30,654 bases of DNA, from IMG/VR virus record IMGVR_UViG_3300021197_001575, positions 1-30,654 of that record. One strand, written 5' to 3'. Positions within the stretch are counted from its first letter, which is position 1. Each line of letters begins with the position of its first letter. Position numbers and translations under genes: made by a program. The notes beneath the pieces were generated by a model. It did no database searches. It was not told the DNA's origin and was given only the letters and a program-made list of their open reading frames with translations. Below are positions 13,029 through 28,828 of this stretch, piece by piece. Source of the stretch: a virus.

Positions 13029-13327
13029 TATACTGCGACGCTCCCAGCCATGTCATCCTGCGTCATAATCCACGCGTAGCACTGCTCCAGGAATGTATCG
13101 CCAGCCATGGCCTCAACCGCAGCTAGCTCAACGTGGTAGCGGCGGAAGTCCACATCCCGCGTGTCGTCATCTGGTGTAGGGGTAGCATACCCCGCAACGT
13201 CAACCATCACGGAAAACTTTGTTTCGACTGACCGCTGCCGCAAGACCGCTGCCATAGCAATCCGAAAGTAGGCCCCAGCGAATGCCGTTCCGTATTGCGA
13301 AGTGCTCAGGTCAATTTGAATAGCCAT
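13028..13327 (-). CDS. Small fibre-region hypothetical protein
   Basis: A 99-residue protein ([30 protein letters not shown]...). The ATG at 13327 is chosen because GGAGG lies 10 nt upstream and the start codon overlaps the previous stop (TAATG). The N-terminal half reads like a beta-rich structural module; the C-terminal part (RRYHVELAAVEAMAGDTFLEQCYAWIMT) is helical. I do not recognise the family. Its place between two fibre proteins suggests a small adaptor or assembly factor. Confidence 0.65.
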   Translation of the reverse strand: MAIQIDLSTSQYGTAFAGAYFRIAMAAVLRQRSVETKFSVMVDVAGYATPTPDDDTRDVDFRRYHVELAAVEAMAGDTFLEQCYAWIMTQDDMAGSVAV

Positions 13328-14433
13328 TAATATGTTACCTCCGATGTGCTTATATTTGCGACCCAACGAATGTTGGTAGACGCTGCGCCAGTAACCGCGA
13401 TCTTAAGCCCGCCGCTGGTTGTGTCGGCGGTGAGAGCCACGGCCCAACTTGGCGTGTTGTCGATCACAGTTGTGGCTGAGTTGACCAGCACTGTGGTGCC
13501 AGCAGAGCCCTCCCTGCGGATCAGGCCCTCCACCTTAAACGCAGCCGATGCCGTGCCTGAGGCCTGCTGGCGAGCTACGATGGTGCCGAGGAACGCGAAG
13601 GCGCTGTTGTTTGGCAGGATAATTTGGTTGGTCGTTGACGCAGAGAGAGCGGGATTGTCCGTCAACATCGCTTTTGGCGTGGCATCAGTGGTCGCGATAC
13701 GCAGAACATAGATGCCGAGTTGGCTGTCGCCGGTAGTGGAGAAATTCGTGCTAGAATAAGCAAATTTTCCAGCGATGGTTGAAGAGGACTGCTGGCCCAT
13801 CGCAACTGAGCCCTGCGCGCCCGCCACACAATTGCGACCAATTGCGAGAGCCTGCGAACCCGAAGCAGTCGCAAAAGTGCCGCCAAAAGCCATAGCGCCT
13901 GATGCTGTCGCTTTGGTAAACTGACCAACAGAGGCCGAGTTCGCGGCGGTAGCGCCATAAGCGGAATGGTCGAATGCTATAGCTGCTGCGAGAGAGGCGG
14001 TGCCAGCGGAATTGGATGTCCCTAGAGCAATAGAACCTGTGCCGGAGGCTGTAGACCCGGTGCCGATAGCCACAGCGTTAGTGCCACTAGCGTCAGGTGC
14101 AGTAGGACTGGACGGGTTCTCCCCGTACAATTGCAGCGCGGCGAGGTCTGCGGCAGTCGCAGACACAAACACCACAGCAGAGCCTGACAGGTTCAGCAAC
14201 GAGCCAGTTGAGCTTTCGGATAGCGTGCGGGAAAGCGTTGTGCTAGATGCTGTATATGCTCCGCTTCCAATTTCCCATGCCGTGCCGTCCTCAATTACGT
14301 ACCGCACTACGTCGCCATTGCTGACCCCGGCGTCGGCAAATGTTTGATATCCGCTTTCGGCGGCCCCCAGCGTAATCGTGCCGGTGCCGGTTGTGGCGGT
14401 CGCAACTTTGGCGCGATTAACTAGGGTTACCAT
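13327..14433 (-). CDS. Tail fibre with YadA-like head repeats
   Basis: A 368-residue fibre. Residues about 115-215 carry the left-handed beta-roll repeats of trimeric autotransporter adhesins ([25 protein letters not shown], later [21 protein letters not shown]), which trimerise and often bind surfaces. The N-terminal about 110 residues ([45 protein letters not shown]) are a common phage-fibre attachment module. The C-terminal about 120 residues form a separate beta-domain, perhaps the receptor-binding tip. The gene directly abuts the upstream structural gene (TAA-ATG). Confidence 0.8.
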
Positions 14434-14931: not shown

Positions 14932-15843
14932 TCAGAGCGCGGCCTCCAGCGCTGCAATACGCGTTTCTAGTGCATCAATTTTCGCCGACGCCTCTTGGAG
15001 AGCCTTGACAACGATTGGCAGAAGCTTACCCGGCGTCGCTTCGAGCCGATCAGGATTATTGTCGCGCGCAGAATTAAGCCAGCGCACCCCGTGCGCCTGC
15101 TCCGCCGCCAACAGTTCTTGAGCGAGGAAGCCAGCTTCTTTTTGGCCCTGCTGGGGCGGCGGGTCGTCAACGTCAACGTCTCGGATATTCCACCGAAATT
15201 CAACCGGTCGCAGCCTCTGGATGTAGCTCAGCCCCAGGCTCAGATTGGCAACCTCGGTCTTGTCTCGCGCGTCAGAGAGAGCCGATATACTGCTGACCTG
15301 ACATCGCAGCACAGTCACACTGCCGTTGCCGAGTACCACCTCGTTGCTGGCCGTGGCCGATGACACCGCAGACTGGTACCCCAGTGCCGTGTTGTTGGAG
15401 CCCGAAGTCAAGCCTGCGCCCGCTTGCCCACCTATTGCCACGTTATTTGCACCGGTACTGGAGCCATCTACCCCCAGCAGGGCCTGATAACCGACGCCAA
15501 CATTGAAACTACCGGTATTGTATCGGCCCGCTGCGTTGCCGATAGCGACGGAAGATGAGGTCGATCCTGTATACGCCGCGCCGCTATTTGTGCCGAGGGC
15601 AATGTTGACCGTACCGGTTGGGTGTGCGCCCGCGTTTAGCTTAAAGGAGCCGTTGACATCAAGATTGGCGGTTGGGCTTGCGGTGCCGATGCCTACGCTT
15701 GTCCCATTCGCCGTGATCGGGCTCAGAAAAACAGCCTTAGTGGCCTTCTTGGTTTCCGTCGCCGATACATCTACCACCGCCAAGACGTCAGTCTCAGCTA
15801 CGGCAGTCAGGGCAACTAGCTCCGAAATTTTTGCGTCAGCCAT
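14932..15843 (-). CDS. Tail fibre with YadA-like repeats and S74 intramolecular chaperone
   Basis: A 303-residue fibre. Short N-terminal modules (MADAKISELVALTAVAETDVLAVVD) are followed by beta-roll repeats (about residues 75-200: VNIALGTNSGAA, SSVAIGNAAG, NNVAIGGQAG, NNTALGYQSA). The C-terminal Peptidase_S74 domain contains LSDARDKTEV, carrying the Ser and Lys of the self-cleaving dyad, then YIQRLRPVEFRWN and a closing coiled coil (IDALETRIAALEAAL). S74 domains fold trimeric fibres and then cut themselves off. The ATG at 15843 is chosen for its strong AAAGGAG; a longer frame upstream is not needed. Confidence 0.9.
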   Translation of the reverse strand: MADAKISELVALTAVAETDVLAVVDVSATETKKATKAVFLSPITANGTSVGIGTASPTANLDVNGSFKLNAGAHPTGTVNIALGTNSGAAYTGSTSSSVAIGNAAGRYNTGSFNVGVGYQALLGVDGSSTGANNVAIGGQAGAGLTSGSNNTALGYQSAVSSATASNEVVLGNGSVTVLRCQVSSISALSDARDKTEVANLSLGLSYIQRLRPVEFRWNIRDVDVDDPPPQQGQKEAGFLAQELLAAEQAHGVRWLNSARDNNPDRLEATPGKLLPIVVKALQEASAKIDALETRIAALEAAL

Positions 15844-15857
15844 GTCTAGCTCCTTTA

Positions 15858-16475
15858 CTACGTGATGCGGAGGAATAGGCCTGCCGAGAACGTGTAGCTG
15901 ACTATCGAGCCATCGCTGTTTAGGTTGGCCACCCTGCCCAAGCAGCCGTTGCCCATTAACCGCCACGTGCCTAGTGCGGGATTTCCGGCGAGCGTCGAAC
16001 CTCCCTGCGTGATGCCTAGGGCACCTCCTGGGATTCCATAGCGCAAAGACGACCCGGCAATGGTAGCGCCGCCTGTAATGGCCGAGGTGGTGTTATTCAG
16101 CAGCATTGAGTACGTTCCCACCGCGAGCCAGGCTATGATTTTGTTGGAGTCGATGGCTTGCTGCACAAGGAGTGGCGTCATCGATTTGGTGTTGTTCGAG
16201 CCGCCCTCGGCTTCGGCTTGCGACGCGAATGTAATGGCCGCAGACGAAGTTCCCGCTGACTGATCTAGTGTCGCAATCGCGATCCAAGCGTCGTTATCTT
16301 CATTGCGCATCTTGAGTATGTGATTGGTCGTGTCGTACCAGATTTGATTGGCATACGTCGTCCCATCGAATTCAGGCCCTGAATTCTGGGTGAGGATGGC
16401 CGCAAAAACATTGTTGATGTTCGCACGGGCGTTGGGTGCCGATTGGTTACCTATGATGTAAATGTGCTGTGCCAT
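15858..16475 (-). CDS. Tail fibre or tip protein
   Basis: A 205-residue protein. The N-terminal part (IYIIGNQSAPNARANINNVFAAILTQNSGPEF...ANQIWYDTTNHILKMRNEDNDAWIAIATLDQ) is a typical fibre attachment module of phage tail-tip regions, including the 'WYDTTNxxLKxRN' strand pair. A small Gly/Leu-rich beta-domain ends the protein (GTWRLMGNGCLGRVANLNSDGSIVSYTFSAGLFLRIT). It follows gpJ directly with a TGATG junction, so it may plug onto the tip. Confidence 0.75.
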   Translation of the reverse strand: MAQHIYIIGNQSAPNARANINNVFAAILTQNSGPEFDGTTYANQIWYDTTNHILKMRNEDNDAWIAIATLDQSAGTSSAAITFASQAEAEGGSNNTKSMTPLLVQQAIDSNKIIAWLAVGTYSMLLNNTTSAITGGATIAGSSLRYGIPGGALGITQGGSTLAGNPALGTWRLMGNGCLGRVANLNSDGSIVSYTFSAGLFLRIT

Positions 16476-20234: not shown

Positions 20235-20857
20235 TAAACGATGACCTCTACAGCGGGAAAAGTCAGGCCGTAGATCGACGCCTCGTCGATGGTCCAGTCC
20301 ACATTGGGGCTAGTAAGCCTGAAAACGCCCTTAGCGTTGCTGACGACGATAGCGGCACCATCCGCAGGCGCTGTACGAATTGACGGCCAGATATCTATTG
20401 TGGCCTGCCCCGCACCGCTGCTGCTAACGTCCTGCAACGCCTTGTGCAGCGATGCGCTCGCGCCCGCGCCAAGCTGGATATAATCACCAGCCTTGAGCCA
20501 GCCGGTCTGGCTGGCTGTGCAGCCATCGATGCTGATGCTGTCGCCCGTTTGACTGCCGCCGTTGACGACAGGCGTGCCGCCAACAGAGCCGCGCGCTGTC
20601 CCGCCAAGAGGGTCTCCTAACAGGAAGGTGCCTTCGCGGCCTCTCATGCTTAGGAGCCATGCTATCCAGCCCTCTGCATCAGCGCGCTTCATAGGTGGAA
20701 GCGTGATTTCGGCCTCCCAGCGCTCACCGCTGTGCTTGTAGACCTGCTGACGCAGCGTGAACACGCTTTCGCTTACAGCCGTGACGTTGACCGCTCGCAG
20801 ATTTATACTGCGAATGCCGGTGTGCGTGGGCAAAGCTCTTGGGTAGCTGATTGGCAT
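20234..20857 (-). CDS. Minor tail protein (distal tail / lambda M position)
   Basis: A 207-residue beta-rich protein right after the tape measure gene, where lambda has M. WEAEITLPPMKRADAEGWIAWLLSMRGREGTFLLGDP is the recognisable core seen in phage distal-tail-type proteins. The remainder carries a Gly-rich insert and a terminal beta-domain (VFRLTSPNVDWTIDEASIYGLTFPAVEVI). It likely joins the tube to the tip complex. A TGATG junction follows the tape measure gene. Confidence 0.7.
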   Translation of the reverse strand: MPISYPRALPTHTGIRSINLRAVNVTAVSESVFTLRQQVYKHSGERWEAEITLPPMKRADAEGWIAWLLSMRGREGTFLLGDPLGGTARGSVGGTPVVNGGSQTGDSISIDGCTASQTGWLKAGDYIQLGAGASASLHKALQDVSSSGAGQATIDIWPSIRTAPADGAAIVVSNAKGVFRLTSPNVDWTIDEASIYGLTFPAVEVIV

Positions 20858-22971
20858 CAGGCAAAGGCCCCCGCAAATGAGCCGCCGCGCCGCCGAGCGT
20901 CGAGCACCGCCTGGGTGCTTGCCGCTGCGATTTGCGGCATTAGGCTCTGGATTTCCGCACGAACAGTCTGCTGCACCCCGGTGCTGACGTTGAACGTCTG
21001 ATTGATCTGACTGCCAGAGCCACCGAGTTCATCGTTAGGAACGACCCTGCCTGAAGCTGAGGGTATCATGAGCTCCGGCCCCATCTCGCCCACCAAATAT
21101 GGCCGAGTCGCGGATGCGTAGCCGCCTTTTGCGAGAGGCTCGATAAGGCCTCCAACATCATCGCCCGAGGTCGCTGGGCCACTCAAGAGGCCGCCCAGGT
21201 AGCTAAAGCCTTTTTCCAGCAAACCCCAAAGTCCATCACCGCCGCCAGCGCCGCCAGCGCCACTCAGCTTGTCGAACAAGCCATCCAGGGCAGCGTCTAT
21301 GCTTTTGTCCATGAGGCTCGACAGTATCTCCCCCATCATGTCCCGGAAGGCTTCCGAGACGCTCTTGGTGCCGTCGATGACACTTTTGAATGCCGACTTG
21401 AATGACGAAGATATTTTGTCGAAAGCGTCTTTCAGCTCCTTGCCAGCCTCCTGCGAGGAATCTTCAAGCTTCTTTAACCTCTCGACAAGCAGGGCGAACT
21501 GAGCGTCAGTCAACTTAAGGGTCGTTGCTATCTTGGCCGCCTGCTGTGCAACGTTTTTGGACAGGCCCAGCTCGTTCATCAGCCGCTGCTTCTCGGTGAT
21601 CTGAGCGATCTGGAGGTTGATCTTACCAAGCTCCTTCAGGTAGTCTTGCGTGACGGGCGAGGCTTGGGGGATGGGAATTGCGCCTGTGCTGAAGCCGCGC
21701 ATGTCTTCCGGTTTACGCACTTTGGCCTGCTTCGTCAGCTCATCTGTTATTTTTCGTTCTGCCGCCAAGCGTGCCTGTAACAAAGCGCTATTAGCGGCAA
21801 GGTCGCCAGAAAGAAGCCTCGTGGCTTCCGCGGTCGCCTCCGTCTGTTCCATGCCCTGTTTCAGGAGGACGTTAATCTCTCTTTGAATTGCCAGCGCCAC
21901 GCCAAGTGGCGCTAGTTCTGAGCTATCCATTGAAAAGGTTTCCATCGAAGCTATGGCGGCGGAAAGCTCAATGGTTGATGATTTAGCCTGATCGGCTTGC
22001 CCTGCATATGCGCTCATTTCCACGGCAAGAGTGTTCAACCGTTCGCCAAGCCCGCCCACGGCGTGGAAAGCTTTCTTCATTGGGGCTGGCAATTCGTTTG
22101 CTTGCGTATTTATTTCAAGCAATACAGCGCTTGTATCTTTTCCGGCTTCTACCTGCGCTTGAAATTTAAGTATTAACGCATCAATAGCAACGATAGCTTT
22201 ATTGCCAACAGCGTTTGCCATCCTTAATGTCGTGCCTTCTATGATCTTATTTATTGCTTCGACGTTTGTGGCTCTTTTCCTAGCAGATACAGCGTTTTTC
22301 TCAAGATATATACTTAAGTCCTTTAAGGCGTCTACTTGACCACTTGGGACAAGATCCCGAAATACATCTCTTAATCCTTGAGCACCCTCCGTCAAAGATT
22401 GCAATTTTATCTTTCTCTGATTCTCTATAAATATTTTAACGCCATCGCTCATCTCGCCAAATTTAGCTTTAGCTTCTTCAAAGCTACTAGCTACTTCTAC
22501 TCTAAATGTTTTGCCAACGTCGCGGGCTGCGCTGTTAAGTGCGCTTAACGAATCGTGCATATTGTCTATTTTTGACTTTGCCTCTTCCGCCGAATCCCCG
22601 GTCTTCATAATGGCCACGCCGACAGCCGCAAAGATGGCCACGGCTGCGCCGATGATTGAACCCAACGGGCCAAATATTTGAAGAAGCTGCGGAGCCTGCT
22701 GGCCGAATGCTTGCAAAGCATTGGTGCCGCCGCCAACCTGAACGGCGAAATCGCCGAGCTGATAGCCGGTTTGCTGCAAACCGCTGCGGAAGAATTTATT
22801 TCCGCCGCCAGCGCCAGTCAAATTCTTGCCGAACACCTTGACGTTTTGGTTGGCCGTTTGGGTTCGCTTGCCAAAGTCGCGCACTGCGTCGCCAGCCGCA
22901 TTGATTTGAGACGTTGCGCCCTTGACGTTCGCTTTAACATTAATGTTGATGTCTGAGCTAACGCCTGCCAT
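20857..22971 (-). CDS. Tape measure protein
   Basis: A 704-residue tail-length protein. The N-terminal coiled-coil part includes a glycine-rich segment, and a hydrophobic region (about residues 95-120, PLGSIIGAAVAIFAAVGVAIM) is typical. A long helical middle and a C-terminal GGYASATRPYLVGEMGPELMIPSASGRVVPN motif are standard for tape measures. At about 1.5 angstrom per residue the tail would be near 105 nm. DNA encoding the first half of the helical middle (about 22080-22500) is near 40% GC by my count, well below the surrounding genes. The ATG overlaps the GT-extension frame above. Confidence 0.9.
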   Translation of the reverse strand: MAGVSSDININVKANVKGATSQINAAGDAVRDFGKRTQTANQNVKVFGKNLTGAGGGNKFFRSGLQQTGYQLGDFAVQVGGGTNALQAFGQQAPQLLQIFGPLGSIIGAAVAIFAAVGVAIMKTGDSAEEAKSKIDNMHDSLSALNSAARDVGKTFRVEVASSFEEAKAKFGEMSDGVKIFIENQRKIKLQSLTEGAQGLRDVFRDLVPSGQVDALKDLSIYLEKNAVSARKRATNVEAINKIIEGTTLRMANAVGNKAIVAIDALILKFQAQVEAGKDTSAVLLEINTQANELPAPMKKAFHAVGGLGERLNTLAVEMSAYAGQADQAKSSTIELSAAIASMETFSMDSSELAPLGVALAIQREINVLLKQGMEQTEATAEATRLLSGDLAANSALLQARLAAERKITDELTKQAKVRKPEDMRGFSTGAIPIPQASPVTQDYLKELGKINLQIAQITEKQRLMNELGLSKNVAQQAAKIATTLKLTDAQFALLVERLKKLEDSSQEAGKELKDAFDKISSSFKSAFKSVIDGTKSVSEAFRDMMGEILSSLMDKSIDAALDGLFDKLSGAGGAGGGDGLWGLLEKGFSYLGGLLSGPATSGDDVGGLIEPLAKGGYASATRPYLVGEMGPELMIPSASGRVVPNDELGGSGSQINQTFNVSTGVQQTVRAEIQSLMPQIAAASTQAVLDARRRGGSFAGAFA

Positions 22972-23116
22972 TTTTCTTTACCCGCTCGGCCTCGATCCGG
23001 TGGAAAGCTATCCACTCATTCATTTCGCTAAGACTGATCTGCTCTATCTCAGCTATCGTGCGACCAAGCCGATCCGCCAGCGCGACGAGGTTATAGCGCA
23101 GCGGATCGGCCTTTAG
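22958..23116 (-). CDS. GT-type C-terminal extension made by -1 frameshift (lambda T analogue)
   Basis: An open frame in the -1 register continues the tail chaperone gene from its slippery site. It reads LKADPLRYNLVALADRLGRT, then IAEIEQISLSEMNEWIAFHR and IEAERVKKNGRR, and stops at TAG 22958-22960, inside the first codons of the tape measure gene. The extension is 52 residues, for a fusion near 167. 'SEMNEWIAFHRIEAER' is the kind of Glu/Trp-rich helix found in T domains. In lambda, the rare GT form coats the tape measure protein while the G form is abundant. It has no start of its own. Confidence 0.85.
   Translation of the reverse strand, partial: LKADPLRYNLVALADRLGRTIAEIEQISLSEMNEWIAFHRIEAERVKKNGRR
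22997..23006. repeat. CCGGTGGAAA copy upstream of the tape measure start
   Basis: An exact copy of the dispersed word, about 26 nt before the tape measure ATG and inside the GT-extension frame. On the coding strand it reads TTTCCACCGG. Confidence 0.6.
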
Positions 23117-23122
23117 TTTTTT
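23068..23122 (-). promoter_or_regulatory. -1 programmed ribosomal frameshift signal
   Basis: On the minus strand the heptamer A_AAA_AAC (23122-23116) lies just before the stop TAA (23115-23113) of the short chaperone. After 5 nt comes GCCGATCCGC (23110-23101), which pairs perfectly with GCGGATCGGC (23077-23068), a 10-bp stem with a 23-nt loop. Slippery site, spacer and stimulatory stem all match the standard design, and the -1 frame is open for 52 codons. Confidence 0.9.
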
Positions 23123-23460
23123 TCCTGATCCTCAACGGAGACCGTCTCAAAGATCGAGCCGAAGACCGTCGCAATAGTGCCCGCCGATTGGCGACTTAGG
23201 ATTGCTTTGTCTTCTAGGTCGAAGAGCTTCTCGCCGTCAGCGTCAATGGCTTTGATAACGATAAGCTCTACCATTGCGTCCATCGACGGATTGGCCAAGA
23301 AGTCCTTGTGCTTACGCTGAACTCGGCTGATGTCTGCACCAGAGATAGGATGATAATAGAGCTTGAGCGGCCCATTATTATCGCCCCACTCGGGCACCTC
23401 TATAACGCGCGCGTCAATCGACGCGGACGCTGCCGCAATCCGCTGTCCCAGTACACTCAT
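23113..23460 (-). CDS. Tail assembly chaperone, short form (lambda G analogue)
   Basis: A 115-residue protein between the tail tube and tape measure genes. It begins MSVLGQRIAAASASIDARVIEVPEWGD and contains LKLYYHPISGADISRVQRKHKDF, typical of phage G-like chaperones that start with a short beta part and continue into helices. The zero-frame product ends EDQEKN at TAA; a fraction of ribosomes should shift at the A_AAA_AAC site to make the longer GT form. No strong SD precedes the ATG; GGGTGA lies close by, 11 nt after the tail tube stop. Confidence 0.85.
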   Translation of the reverse strand: MSVLGQRIAAASASIDARVIEVPEWGDNNGPLKLYYHPISGADISRVQRKHKDFLANPSMDAMVELIVIKAIDADGEKLFDLEDKAILSRQSAGTIATVFGSIFETVSVEDQEKN

Positions 23461-23470
23461 CAGTCACCCG

Positions 23471-23860
23471 CTATGCTGTGGCGGTAGTAAGCGCGCCCGT
23501 GCCCTGCACGCCAATGGACATCTCGACCATACCGTCAAAAGACGCGTTGATTGAGCGCGATGTCACGATGGCTGTGCCGCTGTAGTAGGTGTCGCCGCTC
23601 GCAGCGCCCTCTGGGTAGAATTTGATCGTCACTTCAGCGCCGATGGCAAGCGCCACCTGACCGTTGGTATCGGTCTCGTCCCAGAACACGTCAAGGGTGC
23701 CGTCGAAGGACGTTAGGCTAGGCTTGTGCGTGCGCGCGGTGTCGCCCATCGCGGTGTCTTCGATGGTGTCGGCATTTTCGTTGACGTTGTAGGAGCGAAT
23801 TTCGGCGACAGCCGCCGATCCTACGTGGACAGTCCCCTCTGAGCCGGTGTGCGTTGCCAT
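23471..23860 (-). CDS. Major tail (tube) protein
   Basis: A 129-residue tail tube protein. The sequence THTGSEGTVHVGSAAVAEIRSYNVNENADTIEDTAMGDTARTHKPSLTSFDGTLDVFWD and the closing beta-strands (TAIVTSRSINASFDGMVEMSIGVQGTGAL) match the small HK97/lambda-V-like tube fold. It forms the stacked hexameric rings of the tail. It precedes the G/GT chaperone in canonical order. A GGAG ribosome binding site lies 8 nt before the ATG, and the 130-bp upstream gap holds a possible promoter and palindrome. Confidence 0.85.
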   Translation of the reverse strand: MATHTGSEGTVHVGSAAVAEIRSYNVNENADTIEDTAMGDTARTHKPSLTSFDGTLDVFWDETDTNGQVALAIGAEVTIKFYPEGAASGDTYYSGTAIVTSRSINASFDGMVEMSIGVQGTGALTTATA

Positions 23861-25020: not shown

Positions 25021-27351
25021 TTAAGCTACGTTGACCTCGTCTGTCTTCGCGAAGCTTTCGCCGTTGCGGACAGCAACGTCAACATCCTGGAGGACGGTGA
25101 TTCGGACAGTACCAGACTTATCGCCCGCGTACGGGTTTACTAAAATTGACGGCTGGTTGAAAAGTCCGATCATCATCTGGCTAAAATCCCCGAACGCGAT
25201 CGCGGAAGCATCATTGCCGCCGTCGCCTGGGTCAAGGTTCGTAGGTACGTTGCTGGTGAATGCAGCGCCGTAACCATAGATTGCATTCCACGGCTCGTTC
25301 AACAGCATGATGCTGTCGGTGGACGCCACCTTAGCCGTGGAGGCCATCTTCGCCTTCACCGCCGGGTGAGACAACCAACCCAAAGCATTCGGATTGATTA
25401 CACCGTTGGCTTCTTCGACCATCTTCACCAGCGTGACAAGGTCAGCCCAAGTCAAGTCGGCGACAGAGCCATCAGCGGAAATATCCAGATTGCCAACGCC
25501 AGAGGTGTTGAGCAAACCAGTAGGTTGACCGCCAGACCCAGAGCCGTTGATTGCGTAGTACTCTAGGCGATCAGCCATGGAGTTCAACAAGTCATTACGG
25601 ACAACTTGCTCTACGGAGGGAATACTTTCCATCGCAAGTAATCGACTTATTTCGACAAATGCGCCAAAAGTGCGTGGTTGCAAATTAACTGAAGAATCGG
25701 CCTGGCTTTGATCCGAAACGTCACCCGCCTCCTCGACGAATGCGGCTTGCGCACCGGCCAATTTAGGAATGCGAATGCGGTTGGTCAGACCGCCCATGTA
25801 GTTGGCACCTAAGCCACCAAGAACCTGGCGAGCACGCAAGGCCTCGATGAACAAGTCGCCGCGTTGCACGGTTGGCACAAAGTCTGCGGTGATGGACTCG
25901 CCGGAGATTGCGCCAGTGGCCGCAGTCGTCATTACGCCTGAACGCCAAGCGAAATCAGGAACATAGAAGCCCTGGCTTTCTTTGCCTGTGCGACGCACGA
26001 TCTCATCGTGCATCTCACGCTCTAGACCGGCGTCCTTCCAGTTGCCGCTGACTTGAGCGCGAACCAAGGCACCGAGCGAATAAGCGCGCTGCTCTTTCGG
26101 CTTCACCTCTTGCGAGAGAGGCGCGATATCAAGAGCTTGCTTGCTTTCGATCTCGTTCAGCAACTCGCCGCGGAATTGCTCTACCGACAGGCCGCGGCCA
26201 AGAGCGGCTTCGCCCAGGTCGCGTCGGTTAAAACGAGCGGCAAGAGCCAGGATGGATTTATCGTTTTCACGGGCAGCACGAACCGCGTCGGCCTTGGCTG
26301 CCTCGACATCAACATGATTTTCCATGTTTTCAGTCCTTTCTTGAAGGTTGGGTGAGATAACAGGCGGATGCGAACGTCCAACCCCTACAGAATCGGACGA
26401 ATCCGCAGGAATACTTACAATCGACACCTCAAGCGGTCTGGTCTTTACCCGATAGTACTCCTCGGGGTCGTCCTTCCGCTCCACTCGGCCATGAAGCTCA
26501 TAGCCAACACTAATGTTGCGGCGAATGCCGTCGCAACAGTCCTCGAACACTTCCGAAGCAAGCGAGCCCTTACCAAAGCGCACTATTGCCCGCAGACGGC
26601 GGGAATCTTCATCCAGTTCGACACCTTCGACCACGCCGATGACACGGTCATGTCGGTGGTCGAGAAGCAGGGGCGCGCGGCCAGACCGTAGGAACGTCAA
26701 GTCCATACTGTCCGCGCTGTGATCAATAACCTCTAGCCCGAAAGACCGCTGCACAGGCTCTTCTGTGCTAACGCCAACGGTTACTCGTCGCGTTTTTTCA
26801 TCGATGCCAGGGTTTTCCATGTTGACCGCGCGACAGACAAGGTTTGACCTGTCCGCCCGCATGTCCAGAGTTGCCTCTGGCTCATCGATTTCTTCGTATT
26901 CTTTGTCGTGATCCTTCGCAAAGGTCACAGTTACGGTCTCTTCGTCCTCGTCAACGCTGACGACATGGCGCTCTTCGACTGCCACTTCGTCAAGCTCAAG
27001 CGATGTGTTGTCGCTATTTTTCAGCTCGTCCATTGCGCGATACTCCTTAGATTTACTGGCTGCGAACGACTTGCCGGGGTTGCCGCCCCAAAGAAGCCAG
27101 GCAATTTTGAATGACGACGGTCCGCCGTCGCTCTTTTTAGCATCATAATGCTTATCGTAGTTGTTCGCATGCCGCGAGAAAAACGAGTGCATACGCTTGA
27201 TGGTTGATGGCGACAGCGTTGCGTTGTTCGCGATGTCACGCGCGCGTGCAACGCCGACCTGAGTGCCGCCGCGGCCCCACTCTTTGCGCAGCTCCAAGCC
27301 ACGCTTTGCAGCGTCGCGCATTGCTTGCGTCGGTTTTTGCCCATCAGCCAT
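25021..27351 (-). CDS. Fused prohead protease (S78) and HK97-type major capsid protein
   Basis: A 776-residue three-part polyprotein. Residues about 1-90 (PTQAMRDAAKRGLELRKEWGRGG...LSPSTIKRMHSFFSRH...SSFKIAWLLWGGNPG) are a recurring phage domain often joined to head proteases. About 165-325 is the S78 prohead protease: LLLDHRHDRVIGVVEG supplies the active-site His and GIRRNISVGYEL the Ser. About 343-776 is an HK97-fold capsid protein with an N-terminal delta-like helix, then GFYVPDFAWRSGVMTTAA, LGANYMGGLTNRIRIPKL and a terminal VRITVLQDVDVAVRNGESFAK. The start at 27351 is 7 nt after GGAG; ATG 27354 is adjacent. An internal start at 26325 could yield free capsid protein. Confidence 0.88.
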   Translation of the reverse strand: MADGQKPTQAMRDAAKRGLELRKEWGRGGTQVGVARARDIANNATLSPSTIKRMHSFFSRHANNYDKHYDAKKSDGGPSSFKIAWLLWGGNPGKSFAASKSKEYRAMDELKNSDNTSLELDEVAVEERHVVSVDEDEETVTVTFAKDHDKEYEEIDEPEATLDMRADRSNLVCRAVNMENPGIDEKTRRVTVGVSTEEPVQRSFGLEVIDHSADSMDLTFLRSGRAPLLLDHRHDRVIGVVEGVELDEDSRRLRAIVRFGKGSLASEVFEDCCDGIRRNISVGYELHGRVERKDDPEEYYRVKTRPLEVSIVSIPADSSDSVGVGRSHPPVISPNLQERTENMENHVDVEAAKADAVRAARENDKSILALAARFNRRDLGEAALGRGLSVEQFRGELLNEIESKQALDIAPLSQEVKPKEQRAYSLGALVRAQVSGNWKDAGLEREMHDEIVRRTGKESQGFYVPDFAWRSGVMTTAATGAISGESITADFVPTVQRGDLFIEALRARQVLGGLGANYMGGLTNRIRIPKLAGAQAAFVEEAGDVSDQSQADSSVNLQPRTFGAFVEISRLLAMESIPSVEQVVRNDLLNSMADRLEYYAINGSGSGGQPTGLLNTSGVGNLDISADGSVADLTWADLVTLVKMVEEANGVINPNALGWLSHPAVKAKMASTAKVASTDSIMLLNEPWNAIYGYGAAFTSNVPTNLDPGDGGNDASAIAFGDFSQMMIGLFNQPSILVNPYAGDKSGTVRITVLQDVDVAVRNGESFAKTDEVNVA
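26323..26340 (-). promoter_or_regulatory. Internal ribosome binding site and in-frame start of the capsid protein
   Basis: On the minus strand GAAAGGA (26340-26334) lies 8 nt before an in-frame ATG (26325-26323), the Met of MENHVDVEAAKADAV, exactly at the boundary between the protease region and the capsid delta-like domain. The product would be a 434-residue standalone capsid protein. Boundary position and SD quality make internal initiation likely. Confidence 0.65.
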
Positions 27352-28828
27352 CATCTGGCTCCGCAACAAATGGAGCGACGGCGCTCTTATCGCCAAAAGG
27401 CTCGTGAGCGAATACTATACCATACTGAGCAGCAAGCTCTTTATCCGCCTGCAGAGAGCCGAAAAGCTCCTCAACGTCTTTGCCGTAATGTGCCGCAACA
27501 TCCGACAGACTGATGAGACCATTCGACAGAGCCGTGACGCTGGCGTTGATTTCTTTAAGCGGATCGACCCACGCATATCCTCTGCCCCTCCAAACGGCAT
27601 TTTCGGAGAACTTGTAGAACTTGCTGGCGGGGATGGAGAAGTCGGTGAACGACAGCAACGTCTCTAGCCACCTCGTGTAGACAGGCACGCATAGATGATC
27701 GATCAAGAACGCCTGCAACATCCTGTAGTAGTCTCGATCTTCGATTGTCCCCTGCCGGATAGAGGAATACGACACGCCCTCCAGGTTTTGGCTCAGGCTG
27801 GTGTAACTGACGTTTAGGCCTGCTGCTATTCCCCGCAAGACCGCTGCCTCGAAGTCGGCGAAGGCTGTGACCGGGTGCGTGGGATCAATAAGCTTCAAGT
27901 CTGTCCCGGCTGGCAGTTGGTACATTGCCCCAGGAGCCATATCTATGATAGGAACTTCTTCCTGCTCGTCATCCCCCACAAAGTCGTCGCCAGCGGGTGT
28001 AGTGATTACGCCAAATTTAGCCGCTGCGGATCGAGCCGCGATCAGCTCGGCCTCTCTGTAGCCGTGAAGCATCTTGAGCGAAGCGATGGCCGGAGCCATG
28101 AAGGGCTCGCCCCGCGTCTGAAATGGCCGCGAAGGCATATAGATGTGAAGGATGTCATCTGCGGGAACGCGAACGTGCTTTTTCACCGTGCCCGAACTGA
28201 AGTTCAGGCCGTCACCAGGATGCGCGGTCAGCACATAATAAGCCGCTGGCTTCTGATGCGTATCAACCTCCACCCCCATGCGGATTTGATTGCCGTTTTC
28301 GGCCCGACCGTTCTTATCGCTATCAACAAGGTCGCTTTCGATGAATTGTAGCGTAAAGCTGTTGTGATACTTGGCACCGCGGACCATTTTTATAAACACC
28401 TCGCCGTCGCGGGCGAGGGTCTCTACGGCTAGGCGCTGGCAGTCCGCCCAACTGAGCCGACCGCCAATCTCGGCGCGCCCTAGCCGCCCCCACTGTCTCC
28501 AAGCGGTCTCGATAATGTCGTTGCCGCTAATGTCTATTGTGCCGTTTGAATTTCGCGCGCGAACCTGAAGATTAAAGCCCCTGTCACCAACGACGTTGGT
28601 CTTCATTAGGGTCAAAAAACGCTTCGCGTACTCATTGTTCCTCGCTAAGTCCCTGCAACGATTGCGCAGCAGCGGCAGGGTGCCGTACAGCTCACTATCG
28701 GCGGAGAAGCTAGAGCCAGGGAAATCAGCGAACAAACGACCCTGATTTGCTCCGGCGTAAGAGCGACGGCTGTGCTTGCTCGGCTTCTCCGCTGTGGGAG
28801 CCCGCCGGAAGATATCTCTGAGCCCCAT
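27344..28828 (-). CDS. Portal protein, lambda family
   Basis: A 494-residue portal protein that forms the dodecameric DNA channel at one capsid vertex. Hallmarks are LPLLRNRCRDLARNNEYAKRFLTLMKTNVVGDRGFNLQVRA near the N-terminus, then AETLARDGEVFIKMVRG, DDILHIYMPSRPFQTRGEPFMAPAI and GLNVSYTSLSQNLEGVSYSSIRQG. These match gpB-type (Phage_portal_2) portals in order and length. Its stop overlaps the protease-capsid start by 8 nt. Confidence 0.93.
   Translation of the reverse strand: MGLRDIFRRAPTAEKPSKHSRRSYAGANQGRLFADFPGSSFSADSELYGTLPLLRNRCRDLARNNEYAKRFLTLMKTNVVGDRGFNLQVRARNSNGTIDISGNDIIETAWRQWGRLGRAEIGGRLSWADCQRLAVETLARDGEVFIKMVRGAKYHNSFTLQFIESDLVDSDKNGRAENGNQIRMGVEVDTHQKPAAYYVLTAHPGDGLNFSSGTVKKHVRVPADDILHIYMPSRPFQTRGEPFMAPAIASLKMLHGYREAELIAARSAAAKFGVITTPAGDDFVGDDEQEEVPIIDMAPGAMYQLPAGTDLKLIDPTHPVTAFADFEAAVLRGIAAGLNVSYTSLSQNLEGVSYSSIRQGTIEDRDYYRMLQAFLIDHLCVPVYTRWLETLLSFTDFSIPASKFYKFSENAVWRGRGYAWVDPLKEINASVTALSNGLISLSDVAAHYGKDVEELFGSLQADKELAAQYGIVFAHEPFGDKSAVAPFVAEPDDG

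Follow-up and report, generated by a model that had tools for sequence, protein, structure and literature searches.

A probable -1 frameshift signal in the tail assembly chaperone locus of a marine phage, and the downstream RNA structures of its relatives

In this marine phage the tail gene G stops directly after a slippery sequence, and a second reading frame, T, continues beyond the stop into the next gene. This raises the question of how T is translated and which RNA elements would direct its translation. The window analysed here is the whole of a 30,654-base record of an uncultured virus. We consider it very likely that G and GT serve a siphophage as its pair of tail assembly chaperones, produced by ordinary lambda-type -1 ribosomal frameshifting. 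Most ribosomes would stop at the zero-frame TAA and release G, and a minority would slip back one base at A_AAA_AAC and complete GT, slippage being helped by a stem just past the heptamer and perhaps also by an upstream GAGG. Sequence, conservation, covariation, fold and gene order are shown here, and from there we infer that slippage takes place, how efficient it would be, and what G and GT would do. With T added, the annotation of an essential tail gene, which ordinary gene callers omit, is complete.

Gene order and protein families

The late genes of the window lie on the minus strand in a lambda-like order: large terminase, portal, capsid, tail terminator, tube, G, T, tape measure and fibre. 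The G/T pair is found where such a pair belongs, between the major tail protein gene and the tape measure gene (Table 1). Elsewhere in the late region, a single open reading frame of 791 amino acids (25021-27396, minus strand) fuses a prohead protease (Peptidase_S78) to an HK97-type capsid domain, and genes of the tail-fibre region (13327-14433 and 14932-15966, minus strand) carry a YadA-head repeat and a C-terminal endosialidase chaperone (Peptidase_S74) domain.

Table 1. Features of the G/T locus, in window coordinates.
Feature	Position	Strand	Basis
Major tail (tube) protein gene, directly 5' of G	23471..23860	-	
Gene G, tail assembly chaperone, 115 aa, TAA stop	23113..23460	-	ORF, PHROG and fold match
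GAGG, Shine-Dalgarno-like tetramer 7 nt 5' of heptamer, candidate 5' stimulator	23130..23133	-	E110 GAG bias
Slippery heptamer A_AAA_AAC, X_XXY_YYZ phase	23116..23122	-	sequence and conservation
Zero-frame stop TAA, touching heptamer	23113..23115	-	
T segment, -1 frame, 52 codons and TAG; C-terminal part of GT (167 aa in total)	22958..23116	-	
5' arm of stimulatory stem, GCCGATCCGC	23101..23110	-	fold, synonymous null and covariation
Loop of 23 nt between arms, itself partly paired in predicted fold	23078..23100	-	
3' arm of stimulatory stem, GCGGATCGGC	23068..23077	-	fold, synonymous null and covariation
Tape measure gene, directly 3' of T; start (ATG 22971) overlaps T end by 14 nt	20857..22971	-	

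G matches PHROG 344 'tail assembly chaperone' (E 1e-7) and T matches PHROG 337 'tail protein' (E 1.3e-7); both families are matched again by the fused GT sequence. A Pfam search of G and T gave no family at its cut-off, a sequence search for solved structures gave no match at the G/T locus, and neither did an Rfam search there. The predicted structure of G has a pLDDT of 86. This model superimposes on the HK97 tail assembly chaperone (2OB9) with a Z of 9.6 and an rmsd of 3.5 over 101 aligned residues, although the two proteins are only 18% identical; the next fold matches are YqbN (3KLU) and then RBSTP2171 (3FGX). The model supports the membership of G in the tail assembly chaperone family. 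Together with gene order and conservation, these matches agree with the G/GT pair that had been proposed by a sequence-only reading of this DNA.

G/GT frameshifting is long established, and the roles considered here for the two proteins are those of lambda, in which neither product is present in the mature virion (PMC5009743). By analogy, G would coat the tape measure protein, the T part of GT would recruit tail tube subunits, and a large excess of G over GT would set up correct tail assembly. The window is like lambda in its gene order, in having T in the -1 frame and a heptamer near the end of G, and in its G/GT logic (PMC5009743). It is unlike lambda in the signal: the lambda heptamer is G_GGA_AAG, whereas in the window A_AAA_AAC abuts the stop and a strong stem is anchored immediately downstream. 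Lambda was tried as a test case for the anchored helix and set aside; a quick fold, run with no synonymous null, gave a helix of only 8 pairs, starting 7 nt past the heptamer.

The predicted shift site and its conservation

The last codons of G read GAG GAT CAG GAA AAA AAC TAA, and the -1 frame then stays open to a TAG at 22960-22958, inside the tape measure gene. The sequence-only reading had described this arrangement of heptamer, stop and open frame, and each element lies where it was said to lie. It had also given the junction as EDQEK followed by LKADPLR, which leaves out the residue at AAC; N is decoded there, and the correct junction is EDQEKN-LKADPLR. Trypsin yields only NLK from this junction, and mass spectrometry of the junction therefore needs Arg-C (giving QSAGTIATVFGSIFETVSVEDQEKNLKADPLR), Asp-N (giving DQEKNLKA) or Glu-C.

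Heptamers of the form XXXYYYZ in this phase are rare: the predicted minus-strand genes, with 7,057 codon positions, contain only three, and each of the other two is over 1.3 kb away from its stop. Relatives of the locus were gathered from viral contigs, bacterial genomes and annotated phages. The first set comprises 176 loci with 128 distinct junctions; a second set, seeded with divergent members, comprises 123 distinct junctions, so that the two sets hold about 250. T is in the -1 frame in all 176 loci of the first set. Its 128 distinct junctions all keep both frame and heptamer, which is A_AAA_AAC in 121, G_GGA_AAC in five, and A_AAA_AAT and A_AAA_AAG in one each. In the second set 121 of the 123 junctions have the same form, T lying in the -1 frame and an X_XXY_YYZ heptamer preceding the zero-frame stop by 0-1 codon, and the two exceptions look like a broken or mis-assembled copy. 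The gap between heptamer and stop is zero codons in 242 of 248 distinct junctions and one codon in the remaining six. Given this rarity, and given that the -1 frame of T and a canonical heptamer are retained at all 176 related loci, the heptamer at the end of G is not a chance occurrence. Homologues with a broken heptamer or with stops in the -1 frame had been named among the observations that would count against the frameshift; the relatives pass this check.

A codon-by-codon scan of 107 conserved columns against codon usage finds its strongest departures at K114 (AAA in 122/122), N115 (AAC in 122/123), E113 (GAA in 106/106) and E110. This codon choice, like the heptamer itself, is left unexplained if T is made separately, by ribosomes that re-initiate or start internally once G has ended. 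In favour of this alternative, T is short and comes immediately after the stop of G; against it, the earliest ATG, GTG or TTG in the T of the window is codon 32, and the conserved part of T precedes it. Separate initiation therefore has almost no chance of being the correct explanation, and the frameshift remains the preferred one. T had been expected to have no start of its own and to be missed by gene calling. It is unannotated in three roseophage isolates, CRP-811, CRP-406 and CRP-822, where the 138 nt that separate the stop of G from the tape measure gene carry no feature; a long-range helix lies there and in the adjoining sequence.

The heptamer and its setting have been seen before. In Acinetobacter phage Loki, AAAAAAC lies directly at the stop of the chaperone gene (gp12/gp13), so A_AAA_AAC beside a chaperone stop is already known (PMC5313236); stimulators are undescribed in that paper, and the likeness to the window is one of heptamer position alone. 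The closest isolates found are the CRP-822-type roseophages (CRP-811, -822, -406 and others), which share the heptamer, its adjacency to the stop and T. The paper on that family (PMC12629253) does not mention frameshifting. A_AAA_AAC is a weak shifter in Escherichia coli relative to A_AAA_AAG (PMC5009743; PMC4066793), and re-pairing from AAC to AAA is reported to be less tolerated by bacterial ribosomes (PMC4066793). The efficiency of the site in the host, which is probably alphaproteobacterial, is therefore uncertain, a point against the frameshift reading.

Upstream Shine-Dalgarno-like stimulators are a feature of the dnaX and IS911 type of signal. In the relatives of the window E110, whose codon lies in GAGG, is GAG in 110 of 119 cases, where codon usage predicts 51. 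Pairing with the anti-Shine-Dalgarno sequence reaches -5 kcal/mol or lower in 65% of 37 lineages, compared with 21% of random positions. In the same 37 lineages the pairing shows no significant excess over a synonymous null (mean z -0.6, p 0.26), and therefore only the E110 codon bias stands and GAGG stays a candidate. It is plausible as a Shine-Dalgarno-like stimulator.

Local and long-range downstream helices

Downstream of the stop, the perfect 10-bp stem with its 23-nt loop, reported from the sequence after a 5-nt spacer, is present in the window. In the RNAfold prediction (-34.4 kcal/mol) it extends further out, to 23112-23066, and gains inner pairs, so that the stem begins 3-5 nt past the heptamer (5 nt to the perfect stem). 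This fold has a z of -3.0 against dinucleotide shuffles.

Both arms of the stem encode conserved residues of T (D-P and A-D-R), and the stem could in principle be a by-product of these amino acids. Synonymous resampling of the 50 nt after the stop, which keeps the T protein, nevertheless gives far weaker folds, with a mean of -10.9 kcal/mol compared with -31.0 for the window (z -5.8); for the local duplex p is 0.0005, and the same null is exceeded at p 0.01 by 61 of 128 junctions. Among 62 same-register relatives, 83% of cells pair, compared with 25-46% when the partner is slid. The compensatory changes that had been predicted are also found: 7 of 15 stem pairs have changed on both sides, and none of 500 shuffles scores as high. 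Because of this excess over the synonymous null and these two-sided changes, we regard the stem as selected as RNA beyond its protein coding; that it merely follows from the conserved protein is highly improbable. A stable structure under selection is thus found at a spacer of 5 nt, within the 5-9 nt of structure-stimulated -1 signals.

Two further elements were considered and rejected. A pseudoknot between the N-L codons of the loop (AAT CTx) and a downstream E-I pair (GAG ATT) was dismissed on visual inspection of the junctions, since AAC is a frequent codon for N and disrupts the pairing. A conserved hairpin about 66 nt downstream (GATT-GAGGA-AATC) is not universal. A codon bias that is unexplained lies about 66-90 nt past the heptamer, at window 23050-23020 (GT codons E138, I139 and E146) and in the same columns of relatives; E138 is GAG in 96 of 125 cases compared with 53 expected, and I139 is ATT in 79 of 106 compared with 43 expected.

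The stem had been called textbook. It is so in the window, but it is not universal, and many relatives have a long-range helix instead. Where the local hairpin is absent, RNAalifold predicts an 11-bp helix in which the same 5' arm (GCGAYCCAUUC) pairs with GAAUGGRUCGC, with 81 alignment columns between the arms; this long-range helix would close a branched loop. Roughly half of the first set has the partner some 60 nt further downstream than in the local helix. CRP-811, CRP-406 and CRP-822 (L002, L172 and L173) fold in this way and in this are unlike the window. In the long-range helix 98% of cells pair, compared with 28-48% when slid, and one pair switches between C-G and U-A in step. Duplex scans place the far end of the distal partner mostly at +100 to +111 after the stop, with some divergent lineages having it at +85 to +97. 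In divergent lineages the paired sequences are wholly different, as in phage DSL-LC06, where GAGGATGCTGAA pairs with TTTAGCATCCTC.

The distal helix was compared with 2,000 synonymous draws per locus. The mean distal z is -2.4 in 32 representatives that lack the local stem, with a Fisher p of 4e-28 that assumes independence and is overstated through kinship; ten divergent loci alone give 3e-11, overstated under the same assumption. In control arms the average is between -0.1 and -0.6. That divergent lineages agree is a better argument for the distal helix than these Fisher values.

Unconstrained folding of the first set gives an anchored helix of at least 9 pairs in 97.6% of junctions; the figure is 45% for synonymous versions and 28.5% for random positions. 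By class, 68 helices are local, as in the window, and 59 are distal; the class changes five times on a chaperone tree, which is a quick tree with many open forks. With the same criteria the second set has the helix in 88% of L081-like and 87% of L166-like junctions, compared with 22-28% in synonymous versions. These helices are mostly distal, and a further local branch is formed by L306-L317.

We think it likely, with less confidence than for the frameshift itself, that the stimulatory RNA is modular. A fixed 5' arm, 0-4 nt after the stop, would pair either with a partner about 20-25 nt away or with one that ends about 85-111 nt past the stop, several switches would have occurred, and lineages with runs of at least 8 A would have lost the structure, possibly moving to transcriptional slippage. 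A search of open-access papers, which did not extend to subscription titles such as Xu et al. 2004, found no report of partner switching or of a modular stimulatory structure and is therefore weak evidence of novelty. A literature search on long-range stems in tail chaperone frameshifting returned a general review only. The IS911 frameshift cassette is alike in its upstream Shine-Dalgarno-like sequence, A-rich heptamer and branched downstream structure (PMC5009743; PMC4066793). It is unlike in being a transposase gene with A_AAA_AAG and an unrelated protein, and it resembles the long-range class, not the window.

Long A-runs and related loci

In pelagiphage-like loci (L175, L179-L258) the junction reads GTA AAA AAA AAC TAA, mostly with 9 A, and lacks an anchored downstream stem. 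Pelagiphage HTVC026P has a run of 9 A. The anchored helix appears in 21% of this group, compared with 28% in synonymous versions. Across both sets it is missing from 59 of the 66 junctions whose run has at least 8 A, and from 3 of the 182 in which the run is shorter or the heptamer is G_GGA_AAC. Counted by lineage at 70% nucleotide identity, it is missing in 4/4 long-run lineages compared with 1/33 (Fisher p 8e-5, with both the grouping threshold and the A-run cut-off of 8 picked after the data were seen). One reading is that the long-run lineages moved to transcriptional slippage; another is that they use a stem-free ribosomal shift.

The same question applies to the window, whose run is 7 A: RNA polymerase might slip on it and add an A to some transcripts, without any shift by the ribosome. 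Transcript slippage may be the mechanism in the related pelagiphages, with their runs of 8-10 A and missing stem. The relatives of the window, however, keep the exact heptamer and not the run, including A6 variants (GCA, GTA or CTA before AAA AAC) and G_GGA_AAC variants, and these retain the stem without a long run. The covarying stem has no obvious role in transcript slippage. We consider polymerase slippage very unlikely in the window and retain the ribosomal frameshift.

The relatives form a natural experiment, in which the same protein pair and slippery site are combined with a short hairpin, a long-range helix or a longer A-run without structure. It allows one to test how the needed G:GT ratio is kept while the element that sets it is replaced, and how A_AAA_AAC, weak in E. 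coli, works in alphaproteobacterial hosts.

The same chaperone family, with the heptamer at the junction, also occurs in bacterial contigs. These are two Pseudovibrio genomes (L164 and L167) and three Rickettsia endosymbiont MAGs (L165, L168 and L169), in which the genes are probable prophage genes.
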